Assembly (NCBI GenBank): GCA_027061995.1
Contig: JAMOUT010000100.1
Location: forward strand, 15,254-79,253
Length of the DNA: 64,000 nt
Direction: 5' to 3'
Source of the DNA: Candidatus Aminicenantota bacterium
Lineage (GTDB): Bacteria > Acidobacteriota > Aminicenantia > JAMOAD01
Of the stretch, positions 22,149 to 55,640 are shown one piece after another (position 1 is the first letter of the stretch; each line of letters begins with the position of its first letter). The position numbers and the translations under genes are program-made. The notes below the pieces were generated by a model. The model saw only the letters and a list, made by a program, of their open reading frames with translations, was not told the origin of the DNA and did no database searches.

Positions 22149-22157
22149 TTTTTAAAT

Positions 22158-22242
22158 GGGGACTGGCAATACACGCTTACGAACCTCGTCAGGCCTGAGA
22201 AGGAGCAGCGATAAGTAAGAGGGTGTATGTGTCAGTATCCCC
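22158..22242 (+). ncRNA. ffs: Signal recognition particle RNA, small bacterial (4.5S-like)
   Basis: The 85-base sequence folds into one long hairpin: GGGGA (22158-22162) with TCCCC (22238-22242), then CTG with CAG, ATACAC with GTGTAT, and CTTAC with GTAAG. The apex contains the universal Ffh-binding motif GTCAGG-CCT-GAGA-AGG-AGCAGC (22188-22209), with a GNRA loop closing a three-pair stem and the asymmetric GTCAGG/AGCAGC internal loops. The RNA pairs with Ffh to target nascent membrane proteins to FtsY and the Sec translocon. It lies 13 bases before the dnaX ATG with no terminator in between. The order SRP RNA-dnaX-ybaB-recR is the one known from Bacillus subtilis (scr-dnaX-yaaK-recR). Confidence 0.95.
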
Positions 22243-22255
22243 TTAATAGAAATTG

Positions 22256-23815
22256 ATGATGGAGAAATCTAAATATATAGCAATAGCGAGAAAATATAGA
22301 CCTCAAAAATTTTCGGAGGTTATATACCAACCACATATAGTTAAAATTCTGCAAAATGGTCTTAAAACAGGAAATATCCATCACTCATATATATTTTCGG
22401 GAATGAGAGGGGTCGGCAAAACTTCTGTCGCAAGAATATTTGCCAAAGCTCTGAATTGCGAAAATCCTATGGATGGAGAACCTTGCGGTAAATGTTCCAG
22501 TTGTATTGAGATTACGGAGGGAAGATTTCCCGATGTTCTTGAAATTGACGGAGCATCCAACAGGGGGATAGATCAAGTCCGAGAATTAAGAGAAACAATA
22601 AAATATAAACCTTTAAAAGGCAAATATAAAGTGATTATTATAGATGAAGTTCACATGCTCACGAATGAAGCTTTTAACGCTTTACTTAAAACACTTGAAG
22701 AACCCCCGCCCAATACTGTTTTTATCCTCGCCACAACCGAATTTCACAAAGTCTTGCCAACCGTTGTTTCAAGATCAATAGCTCTTGATTTCCGGAGAAT
22801 CCCTTTTTCAGAGATAAAAAATCAATTGAGAAATATATCGGATACAGAACAAATAGAGGTTTCCGATTGGGCTTTGAGCAGAATCGCGGAAGTATCGGAG
22901 GGAAGCTTAAGAGATTCTCTCAGTATTCTCGAGCAGATTTCTCTTTATGATGATAAAAAAATCAAGGATGAAACTCTTAATAATATATTGGGATTGATAG
23001 ATGAAGAGGTGATAGGGGATATCTTCAGTTTTATTATGGATAAAGATAAAAAGAACATATTTAATACCACCAAAGCCATATATGAAGCGGGGGAGGATTT
23101 TTTTATATTTTATAAACAATTGTTTGAATATTTCAGGAAATTTTTATACTATAAAGAGTTAAATGAGATTGAAGAAACATTTTCGAAAAATCAAACAGAG
23201 CTTTTTAAAAAACATAAAGATAAATTATCCGGTTTTACAATATTAAGGATGCTGAATTTTCTGGAAAAGGGGGAATATTCTCTGAAAAAGAGTTTAAACA
23301 AAAGATATCTTCTTGATATAATGCTTTTAAATCTTATTTATATTCAAGATGCCTTATCAATAGAAGATTTGAAAACAGGGGAAATCAAAAAGAATAGGGA
23401 ACAGCCCCTAAAAAAAAATGAAAATTCAGCAAATGGAATCCCCGCGCAAGTAAAAAAAGCTGGCTATGATAACTCCTTTTTCGGTCAGATTAAAGAAAGA
23501 ATCAGAGAGAAAAAAGAGTTTGTATCCTTTTCTCTGAATGATGTTGCGGATTTTATAGAAGAGGAAAACACTCTTGAATTCAGAATTTCAAGTAACAGGA
23601 AAACATCTCTTGAACTTTTGAAAAAAGAGAAAGATTTGATAGAAGGTATTGTTAAAGAGTTAAAAAATAAAAATTACAGGATTATTTTTTCCCTTGAAAC
23701 AAATCATATAAAAAAAACAAGTGAAGAGGAGTTGTATGATGATGAAAACATCAAAAATTTTCTTGATATTTTTAAAGGGGAAATTGTTAAAATCGAAAAA
23801 AAGGAGGAAAAATGA
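22256..23815 (+). CDS. dnaX: DNA polymerase III subunit tau (and predicted gamma)
   Basis: The clamp-loader ATPase subunit. Residues 1 to about 365 carry the AAA+ clamp-loader core: Walker A GMRGVGKTS, a zinc site CGKCSSC with an earlier Cys, Walker B IIIDEVHML and the sensor region LEEPPPNTVFILATT. Then comes a linker and a tau-like C-terminal domain, 519 residues in all, close to the size known for Thermus tau. The start is ATG 22256 (or 22259), directly after the SRP RNA and without a Shine-Dalgarno sequence. A TTG at 22253 is also in frame but less likely. In the linker a nine-A run follows AGGGA, and a one-base slip there gives TGA, predicting a gamma form of about 388 residues. The next gene, ybaB, overlaps the stop by ATGA. 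Confidence 0.95.
   Translation: MMEKSKYIAIARKYRPQKFSEVIYQPHIVKILQNGLKTGNIHHSYIFSGMRGVGKTSVARIFAKALNCENPMDGEPCGKCSSCIEITEGRFPDVLEIDGASNRGIDQVRELRETIKYKPLKGKYKVIIIDEVHMLTNEAFNALLKTLEEPPPNTVFILATTEFHKVLPTVVSRSIALDFRRIPFSEIKNQLRNISDTEQIEVSDWALSRIAEVSEGSLRDSLSILEQISLYDDKKIKDETLNNILGLIDEEVIGDIFSFIMDKDKKNIFNTTKAIYEAGEDFFIFYKQLFEYFRKFLYYKELNEIEETFSKNQTELFKKHKDKLSGFTILRMLNFLEKGEYSLKKSLNKRYLLDIMLLNLIYIQDALSIEDLKTGEIKKNREQPLKKNENSANGIPAQVKKAGYDNSFFGQIKERIREKKEFVSFSLNDVADFIEEENTLEFRISSNRKTSLELLKKEKDLIEGIVKELKNKNYRIIFSLETNHIKKTSEEELYDDENIKNFLDIFKGEIVKIEKKEEK
23396..23421 (+). promoter_or_regulatory. Programmed frameshift / slippage site for gamma subunit
   Basis: AGGGA (23396-23400), nine bases, then nine consecutive A (23410-23418) and TGA (23419-23421) in the shifted frame. 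In the normal frame it reads CTA AAA AAA AAT GAA. A -1 ribosomal shift on A AAA AAA, or one extra A in the transcript, gives AAA and then the TGA stop. The same arrangement yields gamma from dnaX in E. coli (ribosomal) and Thermus thermophilus (A9 transcriptional slippage). Confidence 0.7.
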
Positions 23816-24117
23816 AAGGCGTTGATATTAATCAATTATTTAAAATCGTTAAGGATACTCAGGACAAACTTCAAAGGGAGATGGAAGAACTTGTCGTTGA
23901 AGGAAGTTCGGGCGGAGATATGGTTAAAGTGAAGATGAACGGGAAAAAAGAGATTCTTTCTCTAAAAGTTGACAAGGAAATTGTAAATCCCGATGATACT
24001 GAAACTCTTGAAGATCTCATAATGTCAGCCATCAATTCCGCTATGGAAAAAGTGGATGAAGCAATGCAATCCAAAATGCCTAATATTCCGGGAATGAATA
24101 TCCCCGGATTATTTTAA
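23812..24117 (+). CDS. ybaB: YbaB/EbfC nucleoid-associated protein
   Basis: A 101-residue DNA-binding protein of the YbaB/EbfC family, forming dimers that coat DNA. Visible family features are an N-terminal helix (LFKIVKDTQDKLQREMEEL), the central strands SSGGDMVKVKMNGKKEILSLKVD, and the C-terminal helix MSAINSAMEKVDEAM. It ends with a glycine-, methionine- and proline-rich tail. Its ATG overlaps the dnaX TGA by four bases, and recR follows five bases later. This dnaX-ybaB-recR arrangement is conserved in many bacteria and links it to recombination and replication housekeeping. Identification is secure from length, pattern and position. Confidence 0.93.
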   Translation: MKGVDINQLFKIVKDTQDKLQREMEELVVEGSSGGDMVKVKMNGKKEILSLKVDKEIVNPDDTETLEDLIMSAINSAMEKVDEAMQSKMPNIPGMNIPGLF

Positions 24118-24122
24118 AAAGG

Positions 24123-24725
24123 ATGTATAATTATCCCGAATCATTACAAAGTGTTATTGAGCTTTTAAAAAAAATTCCCGGTATCGGATTCAAATCAGCT
24201 CAAAGAATAGCTTTTCATCTTTTGAAGATGCCAACACAAGAGGTGGAAAAACTGGGGGAAAGTATCTCATCATTAAAAACCAAGCTGTTTTTTTGTAGCA
24301 GATGCAATAATATAACCGATGAGGAGATATGTCCCATATGTAATTCTTCGGTGCGGGAAAAAGAAAAACTTTGTATAGTGGAACAACCTTACAACTTGTA
24401 TTCAATTGAAAAAACAGGGATATACAAAGGGAATTATTTTGTTCTTCTCGGTTCTCTTTCCCCTTTAAAAGGGATTGGACCCGATGATTTGCATCTTGAT
24501 AAATTGGATATATTGATAAAGGAAAACGGGGTAAAAGAGATAATCATTGCAACAAATCCTAATGTCGAAGGGGAAGCCACTTCCATGTTTTTAAAGAATT
24601 ATCTGTCAAAATATCCTGAGGTTAAAATAACAAAACTCTCCGTAGGACTTCCCATAGGTTCTGACATTGATTATACTGATGAAATCACTTTATTAAAAGC
24701 TTTTGAAAAAAGATATGAAATGTGA
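24123..24725 (+). CDS. recR: Recombination mediator protein RecR
   Basis: A 200-residue RecR, which works with RecO (and RecF) to load RecA on single-stranded gaps. The domains are in order: helix-hairpin-helix near the start (LLKKIPGIGFKSAQRIAFHLL), a C4 zinc finger (CSRCNNITDEEICPIC), a Toprim domain (LCIVEQPYNLYSIE, and the later IIIATNPNVEGEAT), and a C-terminal Walker B-like tail with GLPIGSDIDYTDEITL. Length equals that of the E. coli and Bacillus proteins. It is the third gene after the SRP RNA and probably ends that transcript. A 47-base gap with a possible new promoter separates it from the mglB-like gene. Confidence 0.96.
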   Translation: MYNYPESLQSVIELLKKIPGIGFKSAQRIAFHLLKMPTQEVEKLGESISSLKTKLFFCSRCNNITDEEICPICNSSVREKEKLCIVEQPYNLYSIEKTGIYKGNYFVLLGSLSPLKGIGPDDLHLDKLDILIKENGVKEIIIATNPNVEGEATSMFLKNYLSKYPEVKITKLSVGLPIGSDIDYTDEITLLKAFEKRYEM

Positions 24726-48591: not shown

Positions 48592-49731
48592 TCAGAATTT
48601 TATATTAGAGATAACATAAGATGGAATTTGATAGCCATTTCTTATAAATTGCCCTTTTTTACGGCAAACTCCTTCCCACCCGCCTACATAAATATTGTTT
48701 GATATCTCGGTTAATTTTTTTATAATATCAAAAGCACTCATCTTAATGGAAAAAGGTTTTATAGGGGTTGTTTTTCCCCCGTTCTTTATATAAAAGCTCT
48801 CTTTTATATAAAGAGTTATCTCAAGTGTATCATAATTTAATTCTCCGCTGTTAATATCATCTATTAAAATTCCTCTACCAATATACTCTATGATTTCATC
48901 TTCCCCTTTTTCCCCTTTTTCCATGGATATAATGTTTTGCCTCGGAAGAATCGGAGATTTATAATTTCCCTTCCTCCCCCTACCATTGGAATTATAACCG
49001 GCAAGATAATGGGTATAATCGGAAATAAAACTTTTTAAAACTCCGTTTTGAATAAGAATCACTTTTTCCATCTCAATTCCCTCATCATCAATTGTATCCG
49101 TTGGAAGTGTATCATCGTATATTGTAATATATTCCGGTAATAGTTGTTTGTTGATGTTTTCTTTTTTAAAAGGGGTATTGGATTGAAGGGAGATGTCGGC
49201 TTCAAGAAGATGTCCGATTAGTTCATGAATCAAAATCCCCGCCGCCCTTTTCCTAAAAAAAAGTTTATATTCTCCGGATACTACATCCACCGCTCGTTCA
49301 TTTCTGTTTATAACTCTTAAAAAATCTTCTTTTAACTTCTCATAATTAATATTATCCTGCTTAAAAGAATATCCCATTTTCGTAAGAATATTATTTGTCT
49401 TATTTTCAATTTTGATGGTTTCAATATACTCGTTCTTTTTCTCTGTTTTTTTGTAAGGGGAGAAGATCTCTTTTTCATTTTTGATTATATGAAAATCAAT
49501 TTTTGCATCAGGAAAATAATTTTGAAGATGTCTTAAATTTTCAAAATTATAATTGGTTAAAACAATATCACTTTTTTCTTTTTTTTCCTTTAAAATTATG
49601 ATATCGGATTTTTTTTTTTTATAGATTGTTTTTGCTTCACCGTATCCGCTATTTTTTTCCTCGATCCATGAACGATTATCTATTATGATACTAAGTTGAT
49701 TATAATGCTCTTTTATATAAGAAAAAATCAT
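48592..49731 (-). CDS. tldD: TldD/PmbA-family metalloprotease, short N-terminus
   Basis: A 379-residue TldD-type protein. The metal site is HELIGHLLEAD near residue 170 (HExxxH with the later EaD). IYDDTLPTDTIDDEGIEMEKVILIQNGVL and the Cys-containing GGWEGVCRKKGQFIRNG are characteristic. TldD usually acts with PmbA/TldE to degrade unfolded peptides or mature modified peptides. No PmbA gene is adjacent. The protein is about 70-100 residues shorter than the common TldD, the loss being in the N-terminal domain, and a run of twelve A (49609-49620) encodes KKKK near residue 38, a place where reading-frame slips are likely. It follows purM by four bases. Confidence 0.87.
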   Translation of the reverse strand: MIFSYIKEHYNQLSIIIDNRSWIEEKNSGYGEAKTIYKKKKSDIIILKEKKEKSDIVLTNYNFENLRHLQNYFPDAKIDFHIIKNEKEIFSPYKKTEKKNEYIETIKIENKTNNILTKMGYSFKQDNINYEKLKEDFLRVINRNERAVDVVSGEYKLFFRKRAAGILIHELIGHLLEADISLQSNTPFKKENINKQLLPEYITIYDDTLPTDTIDDEGIEMEKVILIQNGVLKSFISDYTHYLAGYNSNGRGRKGNYKSPILPRQNIISMEKGEKGEDEIIEYIGRGILIDDINSGELNYDTLEITLYIKESFYIKNGGKTTPIKPFSIKMSAFDIIKKLTEISNNIYVGGWEGVCRKKGQFIRNGYQIPSYVISNIKF

Positions 49732-52090: not shown

Positions 52091-53581
52091 CTACCTTTTC
52101 CTTATATTTTCGAGAAAATAATATTCTCCCGAAGGGTATTTGTCTATATTAGCAATCCCTCTTTTATATATTATGATATTATCACTATACCATAAGGGGA
52201 TAAAAGGGATATCTTCGGATATTATTTTTTCCGCTTTTTCATATATGGTTTTTTGTATTTTCAAATCATAAGTTTTTTCAGCATCATCAAGGAGAGTATC
52301 AATGGATTTATTAACATAGTGTGCTCTATTCGCTCCGTTCGGAGGTATAAATTTTGAATGAAGTGTATATTTATATATGTCGGGAGAAAGGATTCCCACC
52401 CATGCCAGAGGATAAACCTGAAAATTACCTGTTATTATATCTTTATAGAATGATGAAAATTCAAGTGTTTTAATTTTTACTTTCACCCCGATAAGTCCCC
52501 AATAATATTTTAAAGCTATTGCTATTTTTCGTGAGACCTCTTTATTGGCACATTTAATCTCTATTTCGGGATGCTTTATCTGAGATTGTTTTAATTTTTG
52601 TTTAGCGAGCTTTAATGAATAATGGTATTTTTTTATTTTGTCCGAGTATGCCCAATGTTCGGGAGAAAGCAGAGTATAAGCTCTTCTTGCGAACCCTTTC
52701 ATGACAAATTTCATTAGCTCTTTGTAATTTATGGCATAAGATAGTGCTTCTCTGAAATTTCTATTTTTTAAAAGTTTATCTCTGAGATTAAAACCGAGAT
52801 AATACATTGTATTTCCCGGATAATTGTCTATGATATGATTTTTTGTTCTCTTGAGAGATTCAATGAATTCAGGGGGAACACTATTAATCATAAAATCAGC
52901 TTTTCCTTTTTTAAGAATCAATATTCTTGATATGGGATCATTTATCACTTTAATTATTAAATCGTCTATATAAGGGGGATGTTTAAAGTATTTTTTATTG
53001 GCTTTAAAGTATAAAATATTTTTTTTCGATTTTTTATAAATAAAAGCACCTGTCCCTATCGGCTTTCTGAAAAAGTTTTGTTTTGAGCCATAAGGGACAA
53101 TCCCTATGACAAGATTATAAAAGAGTGCTGAGTCAGGATATTTTAGCTCTATTGTAAAACCGTATCTACCTCTATGGTAAATTTTTTTTATACTTTTGAA
53201 AGCTGATTTTCTTATACTCTTAAAACTTTTTGATAGCATTGAGTTAAAAGTCCAGATAATATCACGACTTGTTAGCTCCTTCCCATTATGAAAATAAATC
53301 CCTCTTTTCAAGAAAAAATTAATTTTTAAAAGGGATATTATTTTATATTCTTTTAACAAATCTTTTTCGACTCCGAAATTTTTAGTTTTTTTAAATAAGC
53401 CGTTGAATAAAATCTGCTGGATTCTTTGAGAAGCTTGATCCGTTCCCACTCTCGGGTCAAGATTTAAAGGGTAATTATCAAGAATCATTGTTAATCTTTT
53501 TCCTTCTCCATTTAATGGTGGGACGGAACATATATTTGTAAATAACAAAAGAAGTATTAAAAGGCTAATTCTCTTTGGCAT
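52091..53581 (-). CDS. Family 5 extracellular solute-binding protein (oligopeptide/nickel type), orphan
   Basis: A 496-residue periplasmic binding protein with a signal peptide; the Cys in LFTNICSVPP could be lipid-modified, although the lipobox is not canonical. SBP_bac_5 features are LDNYPLNLDPRVGTDQAS, LKRGIYFHNGKELTSRDIIWTFNSML, NFREALSYAINYKELMKF and the C-terminal DIPFIPLWYSDN. Such proteins deliver peptides or metal-chelates to an ABC importer, but no permease or ATPase gene is near. Its ATG lies inside the end of the lytic transglycosylase gene (17-base overlap). That suggests a link to peptidoglycan-fragment handling (inference). Confidence 0.88.
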   Translation of the reverse strand: MPKRISLLILLLLFTNICSVPPLNGEGKRLTMILDNYPLNLDPRVGTDQASQRIQQILFNGLFKKTKNFGVEKDLLKEYKIISLLKINFFLKRGIYFHNGKELTSRDIIWTFNSMLSKSFKSIRKSAFKSIKKIYHRGRYGFTIELKYPDSALFYNLVIGIVPYGSKQNFFRKPIGTGAFIYKKSKKNILYFKANKKYFKHPPYIDDLIIKVINDPISRILILKKGKADFMINSVPPEFIESLKRTKNHIIDNYPGNTMYYLGFNLRDKLLKNRNFREALSYAINYKELMKFVMKGFARRAYTLLSPEHWAYSDKIKKYHYSLKLAKQKLKQSQIKHPEIEIKCANKEVSRKIAIALKYYWGLIGVKVKIKTLEFSSFYKDIITGNFQVYPLAWVGILSPDIYKYTLHSKFIPPNGANRAHYVNKSIDTLLDDAEKTYDLKIQKTIYEKAEKIISEDIPFIPLWYSDNIIIYKRGIANIDKYPSGEYYFLENIRKR

Positions 53582-55640
53582 TGTTTAATCTTTTATATAT
53601 ATTATAGTTTGTTAATATGATTTTAACATATTTTCTCGTCTGCGTGAAAGGGATCATCTCAACGAATTCATCGTCCTCAAAATCCTTTAAAATCCGCTTC
53701 CAATGATTAACGCGATGTTCACCCGCATTGTATGCGGCAAGAACAAGATGATTATTTTTCCTGCCGTATAATTCATATAATTTTTTTAAATAATAAACCC
53801 CTAATCTGACATTTATTTCAGGTTTATAAAGATGAGTTTTTCTGATTAGATTCACATGATTTTCCCTTGCCAGTCTTCTTGCGGTATAATACATTATCTG
53901 CATTAACCCTCTTGCTCCGGCGTATGAAAGAGCTCCTTCATTAAAAAGGCTCTCTTGTCTTATCAGGGACAAGACGAGAAGAGGGTCGATTCCGTATTTC
54001 CACGATTCTCTCTTTACCAAATCAAAATATTTCTCGTGAAAGGGATAAGCTATTATAAGATATTTTATGGGGGTTGTAATAGAAAAAGGGTTATGAAGTT
54101 TTACCCGATTGACGATAATAGAATAAAAATCATTGGTTTCATAGTATTTATCCAAAATATAATATTTGGTTTCCTCTGCCGGATAAAGTTTTGATAAAGT
54201 TTTAATCTCTGTTTTATATCCTCTCCTTAAATTATTAACCGCAAAAAAATCCATTCGTTTTAATTCTTTTAAAAAGAAAGGGGTGTAAGGAAGATCCGAG
54301 ACTCTTTTTTCTGTCAAACGATTTATCTTTTTTAATTTTTTTCCGCTTAATTTTTTGCTTGCAAGATTCCCGTAATAATGGTAATAATTATCTTTCACAA
54401 AACCAAAATATTCTTGTTTTAACTTTTTTGATTTTCCGTGAAGTTTTTCTTTTAATTTCAATGACCAATATTTTTCTGATATTAGAGGTTTTTTGATTTC
54501 TTTATAATATTCATATGTTTTTCTTATGTTTCCCATAAAATAATTTATCCAAGCAACCCGTCTTATAATCTCTTTCTTCGGTTGTTTATTATGTTTAATA
54601 TAGTCATCATAAAAATTTTTAGCTTCTCCGAGGTTTAATTTTGAAAAATTAAAATCACCCATTATCAATGATAATTTTTCTTTGTTAACCCCTTTTCTTA
54701 CAAGAGAGTAATAAATCTCTTTAAGATTTTCCAAGCCCCTTCTTTTATAAGATATTCTTAAGATATATTTAGCGGCTTCAGCCCCGATTTCATTATTAAA
54801 ATTAACCTTTAGAAACCATCTTTTCGAATAATTATATGCCCCTCTCTTATAATAGGTTAATCCAATAAGAAAATCCGTTTTGCTGCTGGTTTTAAATTTT
54901 AAAAGCTCTCTTTTAGCTTTTCCGTATTGTCTGTATCTTATAAGGTTTTCAATTCTTTCAATTTTTTCACTCGTTGAAAATTTATTAAAAACAGTCCTTT
55001 TGGTTTTATAGGCTATCTTTGCATACTCGGAAAGTGGGAATGAAATCATTAATCTTCTGTAATAGTAATCCCCTTTTTTCTTGTCTTTAAAATATTTATA
55101 ATATAATTCCCCTTTTAAAAAAAGAGCAAAATCAGGAAAATTCTTTAGAACTCTTATCTCATTGGATTTAAATGTTTCATTTGTTAATTTCCAATATTTT
55201 TTTTCTCTGAATAATTCAAGGCAATTTTTTATTATCAGAGGGTAAAAAGGGGAAAAATAATGTTGTTTGTTTTTTTTACATATTTGCAAGGCTCTATATG
55301 TATAATCTCCTTTTCTATATAATTTAAGGTATAGCAGTGATTTATAATCATTTAAATAAGAGGGGAAATCTATTTTATCCAATGCTTTTTTTGCTTTTTT
55401 TATATTCTTTTTTTTTAAAGCGGAAAAAAAATCCTTGAAAGTATCAAGATAATCTATTTTATGATGACGGGTTTTAAATGAAAGGGTATATGTTTTAACC
55501 ATTTTTGTTTTTCGGGAAAAAGTTATTCTGTTTCTATTAAGAAGATAAAAGACTAAAGAAAAGGCAATAATTAATGCTATGAAAAAAATGACTATGATAA
55601 TAGGAAATATTTTTTTTTTATGATTTAAAATTATAGCCAT
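53565..55640 (-). CDS. Membrane-anchored soluble-lytic-transglycosylase-like (SLT domain) protein
   Basis: A 691-residue protein with one N-terminal membrane anchor (residues 12-33). About 500 residues of alpha-helical, TPR/superhelical type follow (YRYGKAKRELLKF, GAYNYSKRWFLKV), as in Slt70. At about 545-680 is a C-terminal SLT domain with the catalytic glutamate in LSLIRQES (near 560), GARGLMQIM and LAAYNAGEHRVNHW. It should cleave peptidoglycan glycan strands to 1,6-anhydro-muropeptides in the periplasm. The start overlaps the GAF-like gene by 23 bases and the end overlaps the solute-binding protein gene by 17. Confidence 0.9.
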   Translation of the reverse strand: MAIILNHKKKIFPIIIVIFFIALIIAFSLVFYLLNRNRITFSRKTKMVKTYTLSFKTRHHKIDYLDTFKDFFSALKKKNIKKAKKALDKIDFPSYLNDYKSLLYLKLYRKGDYTYRALQICKKNKQHYFSPFYPLIIKNCLELFREKKYWKLTNETFKSNEIRVLKNFPDFALFLKGELYYKYFKDKKKGDYYYRRLMISFPLSEYAKIAYKTKRTVFNKFSTSEKIERIENLIRYRQYGKAKRELLKFKTSSKTDFLIGLTYYKRGAYNYSKRWFLKVNFNNEIGAEAAKYILRISYKRRGLENLKEIYYSLVRKGVNKEKLSLIMGDFNFSKLNLGEAKNFYDDYIKHNKQPKKEIIRRVAWINYFMGNIRKTYEYYKEIKKPLISEKYWSLKLKEKLHGKSKKLKQEYFGFVKDNYYHYYGNLASKKLSGKKLKKINRLTEKRVSDLPYTPFFLKELKRMDFFAVNNLRRGYKTEIKTLSKLYPAEETKYYILDKYYETNDFYSIIVNRVKLHNPFSITTPIKYLIIAYPFHEKYFDLVKRESWKYGIDPLLVLSLIRQESLFNEGALSYAGARGLMQIMYYTARRLARENHVNLIRKTHLYKPEINVRLGVYYLKKLYELYGRKNNHLVLAAYNAGEHRVNHWKRILKDFEDDEFVEMIPFTQTRKYVKIILTNYNIYKRLNNAKEN

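Follow-up and report, generated by a model that had tools for sequence, protein, structure and literature searches.

Does the dnaX gene of an uncultured organism within Candidatus Aminicenantes yield one DNA polymerase III gamma/tau product or two? The question is raised by a run of nine adenines (A9; other runs are written likewise) that lies inside the gene and is followed at once by a stop codon in the -1 frame, in a 64,000-nucleotide stretch (the window) of contig JAMOUT010000100.1 (positions 15,254 to 79,253) from an assembly of 2.36 Mb and 104 contigs (GCA_027061995.1), which we label G000. A sequence-only reading of the window had proposed that gamma and tau are both made here, with a Shine-Dalgarno-like (SD-like) AGGGA upstream of the run as a stimulator of the ribosomal type, and had left the choice of mechanism open. 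From sequence comparison and calculation, we hold with moderate confidence that A9 and the -1 stop form a slippage site that would let a single dnaX give two products, mainly through slippage of RNA polymerase in the Thermus arrangement. Because it is the right gene, the site lies just past the clamp-loader core, A9 and stop recur in AT-rich relatives and the predicted products have suitable sizes, a gamma-producing slippage site is the best reading of the locus. That much of the earlier proposal stands; what we infer further is that the run does slip, chiefly during transcription, and that the cell makes use of gamma.

The identity of the gene is clear. The 519-residue product of dnaX (22256-23815, forward strand) scores 449.8 bits against NCBIfam NF004046 (cut-off 400), matches dnaX_nterm at 3e-129 and contains the Pfam domains DNA_pol3_delta2, DNA_pol3_gamma3 and DNAX_ATPase_lid. 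Its start is ATG at 22256, and the open reading frame (ORF) list gives a TTG start 3 nt upstream. Read directly on the same strand, AGGGA occupies 23396-23400, a nine-base spacer (ACAGCCCCT) 23401-23409, A9 23410-23418 and the -1 frame TGA 23419-23421, exactly as first described, and frame 0 across the site is CTA AAA AAA AAT GAA. The run begins in codon 385 of 519, 74% of the way through the gene, and the Pfam match to domain III ends at residue 367; the linker position just past the clamp-loader core, 24 codons beyond its end, is thus borne out, and the predicted short form would retain domains I-III complete.

Slippage of RNA polymerase along the nine templated adenines would yield messages with more or fewer A. 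Those with 9 or 9+3n A would be translated into tau (519 residues, computed mass 60.4 kDa), whereas one extra A, or equally a -1 shift, would give a gamma form of 388 residues and 45.0 kDa ending in PLKKK (22256-23421), in agreement with the sizes proposed earlier apart from a slightly lower mass of ~44 kDa. Loss of one A would add about 11 residues to gamma before the first stop of the +1 frame, a TAA at 23451-23453, 32 nt past the run. In G001 and G002, two members of a sister genus, that distance is 29 and 95 nt, and the -1 stop follows the run immediately. At least nine A inside an intact dnaX frame and near stops in both alternative frames, which are seen here, belong to the features expected of slippage of the Thermus type, as do messages with a variable number of A. 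An internal start at the ATG overlapping A9 (23418-23420) was considered as another use of the site and rejected, as its +1 frame closes after just 11 codons and AGGGA lies 17 nt off.

Two known systems frame the comparison. In Thermus thermophilus, gamma arises by transcriptional slippage at an A9 (Larsen 2000, as cited in PMC1088944 and PMC5009743) that lies seven-eighths of the way through dnaX (PMC1088944), and nine is the length of polymerase slippage found in many bacteria (PMC1088944). G000 shares with it the A9 in dnaX, a tau encoded in one unbroken frame, stops past the run in both other frames and two tRNA-Lys, UUU and CUU, a condition linked to the use of polymerase slippage in Thermus (PMC5009743). 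It differs in that its run stands at 74% of the gene, soon after domain III. In Escherichia coli, gamma is made by a programmed ribosomal -1 shift at A_AAA_AAG (PMC5009743); likenesses are the linker behind domain III, a -1 TGA just past the slip site and an AGGGA-like sequence upstream, but G000 has A9 rather than A6, no AAG and no stem-loop, and its SD-like sequence is at background level and has no equivalent in G002. The dnaX of G000 combines a Thermus kind of run with an E. coli kind of place and, judged by its sequence, would work like the Thermus site. Two-ORF dnaX genes with A7-A10 runs, for which transcriptional slippage was suggested, are also known from the GeneTack set (PMC3711429); they share the poly-A run, but there the shift makes tau, which in G000 is the unshifted product. 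Among the papers searched we found no report on frameshifting in Aminicenantes.

Our comparison set comprised only five genomes of the family and order (G000-G004). The DnaX proteins of G001 and G002 are 59% identical to that of the window and 74.5% identical to each other, and in both genes the same linker has an A9 that runs straight into a -1 TGA (TTA AAA AAA AAT GAT and GTA AAA AAA AAT GAT). G003 is represented by two contigs that meet at the dnaX linker, one of which starts with ATA AAA AAA AAT GAT. The codon before the lysines therefore varies among CTA, TTA, GTA and ATA in these four sequences; the amino acid changes, yet the wobble A that completes A9 is present, which we count in favour of a slippage site. 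The sequence-only reading had looked to relatives for retention of both A9 and AGGGA: the run and stop are found in AT-rich G001, G002 and one G003 contig, AGGGA is missing from G002, and the site is lost from a GC-rich relative discussed below. Such a loss with nothing in its place had been named in advance as grounds for refutation; it applies to this one genome, G004, but not to the AT-rich relatives.

Could the site have no programmed function at all, a chance A9 in a lysine-rich, AT-rich and weakly constrained linker with an incidental -1 stop? We consider this unlikely. Samples of 363, 240 and 214 genes from G000, G001 and G002 (~250-460 kb each) contain 22, 5 and 7 coding runs of at least nine A, where synonymous shuffling predicts 103, 45 and 60, so that they stand at 0.1-0.2 of expectation; at A8 there is no shortage. 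The window itself has 13 A9 runs against 43 expected. Because runs of at least nine A are kept rare, the presence of A9 at dnaX in more than one genome needs explaining. Among the sampled genes, dnaX alone has such a run with an immediate -1 stop in G000, G001 and G002 alike. A9TGA occurs 8, 8, 4, 6 and 1 times in G000 to G004 (G000-G003 have sizes of 2.2-3 Mb), with dnaX among the occurrences in each of the first four; the others mostly fall between genes, are antisense or are out of phase, and no sense-strand case within a convincing gene has its TGA in the -1 frame. Those other G000 runs of at least nine A that could be aligned (four with G001, one with G002) have no counterpart of that length.

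Several observations weigh against a maintained slippage site. Given the protein sequence, and before the genome-wide rarity of long runs is counted, codon usage alone would give at least nine A and an immediate -1 stop with p = 0.36 in G000 (60-codon linker), 0.15 in G001 and 0.12 in G002, so that the single occurrence in G000 is unremarkable. Noncoding DNA is almost equally depleted of A9 (observed to expected ratio 0.31, versus 0.20 in coding DNA), and replication instability of runs consequently explains their rarity about as well as polymerase slippage does, a reservation also made in PMC1088944; we had at first taken the shortage as strong support for polymerase slippage and no longer regard it as proof. 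G004, with 57% GC, lacks the site (CTC AAG AAG AGG), its linker being without any slippery heptamer or other replacement, and beyond the family, A9 directly ahead of a -1 stop was absent from the linker of every AT-rich DnaX gene sampled in the class. G003 is itself ambiguous, since its other contig ends in ATA ACA AAA AAT GAT (ACAAAAAATGA). Moreover, the best alignment sets the KKND of the relatives opposite IKKNR in G000, about nine codons before the G000 A9; because the runs do not align opposite each other, those of G000 and its relatives may not be one inherited site, and homology between the genera is not clear. On the other side, it is the presence of the site in relatives, unlike its single occurrence, that is remarkable: codon usage would produce it in all three genomes with a joint chance of ~0.006 if they are independent, a value that the 3- to 5-fold shortage of A9 reduces further. 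Taken together, the evidence for maintenance of the A9-stop site is good but not overwhelming.

At the G000 counterpart of the relatives' site (ATC AAA AAG AAT AGG) the run is broken and the -1 stop kept, and A9TGA follows nine codons on. One conceivable history, which we put forward tentatively and consider somewhat improbable, is that the A9-stop module was re-created at a nearby, non-homologous place of the linker in the sister genera. If so, selection would keep the existence of gamma and not one particular site, and a replicase gene would move its slip site without losing the short product.

The two G003 contigs are an observation in their own right: the break in the assembly falls at the dnaX linker, between the end of C205 and the start of C337 (loci L005 and L012), with ACAAAAAATGA and A10 set against A9TGA. 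Either strains differ at the slip site, or the A-rich stretch caused trouble in assembly. Outside the family, another Aminicenantes locus (L081, 44% GC) has A9 in the linker at dnaX codon 422 of 551, with stops 11 nt (-1 frame) and 4 nt (+1 frame) downstream, a layout that looks Thermus-like.

If the site does function, ribosomes rather than RNA polymerase might do the slipping, a reading to which we give the same low probability as to absence of function. Here tRNA-Lys on A_AAA_AAA or A_AAA_AAT would slip back by one base and translation would stop at the TGA, helped by pairing of AGGGA, or of AAGGAG in G001, with 16S rRNA. Both heptamers are indeed in frame, with the -1 TGA next, but neither is the A_AAA_AAG of E. 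coli; AAG is the codon behind the shiftiness of that site (PMC5009743), and alongside the UUU species G000 encodes tRNA-Lys(CUU). The stimulators of the E. coli type were sought with E. coli dnaX as positive control. Pairing was computed with the common bacterial anti-SD sequence, the 3' end of the 16S rRNA being absent from the G000 assembly. At -4.8 kcal/mol, AGGGA in G000 is matched in strength by 18% of coding positions and is probably incidental; the best SD-like element in G002 is matched by 42% of positions, which amounts to none, whereas the E. coli element falls in the top 1.6%. Nor does any stable stem-loop fold downstream of the run in G000, G001 or G002, while the control yields -19.1 kcal/mol in 40 nt. 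We have therefore dropped AGGGA as a stimulator in G000; this half of the original proposal, a stimulator of the ribosomal type, is not supported. The lack of a stem-loop in three genomes and of a consistent SD-like element counts for polymerase slippage. In favour of the ribosome, G001 stands out: its AAGGAG, ~10 nt upstream of the run, is matched by just 1.5% of coding positions, and the C205 contig of G003 also has AAGGAG, with the run cut to A6 and A_AAA_AAT plus TGA kept. Ribosomal help may thus operate in the genus of G001. On balance we favour the Thermus route over ribosomal shifting, and the two together over no function.

Proteolysis of tau to a gamma-like form, known from Caulobacter crescentus (PMC5009743), would give A9 no part to play and is very improbable here, as it leaves the A9-stop arrangement without a reason and no pointer to it appears in the sequence.

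Should gamma be made through polymerase slippage at A9, Aminicenantes would be added to the lineages in which evidence points to two dnaX products, and its route would resemble that of Thermus rather than that of E. coli. Such a result would favour the idea that cells gain from retaining gamma and can use one kind of readout error or another, interchangeably, to produce it.

The gene order dnaX, ybaB, recR is shared with E. coli. The last two genes lie directly downstream on the forward strand (23812-24725; Pfam YbaB_DNA_bd and RecR domains), and a small bacterial signal recognition particle (SRP) RNA lies directly upstream, also on the forward strand (22155-22248; Rfam RF00169, 61.5 bits).

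A separate run came to light in dnaX of Desulfuromonadales/Geobacteraceae, in genomes mostly of 52-63% GC. Here, at codon 519-532 of ~565, an A10 precedes GAGTGA or a near variant of it, the sequence being GAA AAA AAA AAG AGT GAC, with GAG TGA in the -1 frame. At 31 loci, A10 has a -1 stop 2-3 nt on (L101, L104, L109, L111-L115, L117, L118, L121-L125, L127, L130-L132, L136, L137, L139, L141, L143, L144, L148-L152 and L157); L106 has A12, and L147 and L155 keep A10 with the -1 stop farther off. The run encodes AEKKKS within the C-terminal domain, ~37 residues from the end, and resembles a strongly conserved site of programmed slippage or -1 frameshifting, through which tau would lose about that many residues. 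Ten A retained in genomes rich in GC point to programmed slippage more strongly than does the A9 of the window. A text search of the literature returned nothing on this A10 site, which is no proof of novelty. Two loci without the C-terminal A10, L110 (codon 430) and L145 (codon 423), have a linker A7 with a -1 TGA 3 nt on, a short way behind GGAGG, an E. coli-like arrangement that perhaps replaces A10; L098, also without it, has A6-A7 in the linker at codon 441, again with a -1 TGA 3 nt on. Close to the place of A10, the window has A8, CAAG and a -1 frame TGA (23710-23724) at dnaX codon 485, 34 residues from the end, and G002 has A8 at codon 496, but both are shorter than the run length that becomes rare.

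Other long runs occur in the window, on the reverse strand. The longest A run among the sampled G000 genes is an A12 (49609-49620) close to the beginning of a PmbA/TldD-like peptidase gene (48595-49731), whose frame is intact. A lytic transglycosylase gene (53568-55640) has two, A10 at codon 8 (55610-55619) and A9 at codon 75 (55408-55416), in a genome where such runs are rare. In G001 (L218) and G002 (L223), a sensor-protein-like ORF has A9TGA in the +1 phase, encoding KKMM, within a shared context (aaaaaagAAAAAAAAAtgatg).
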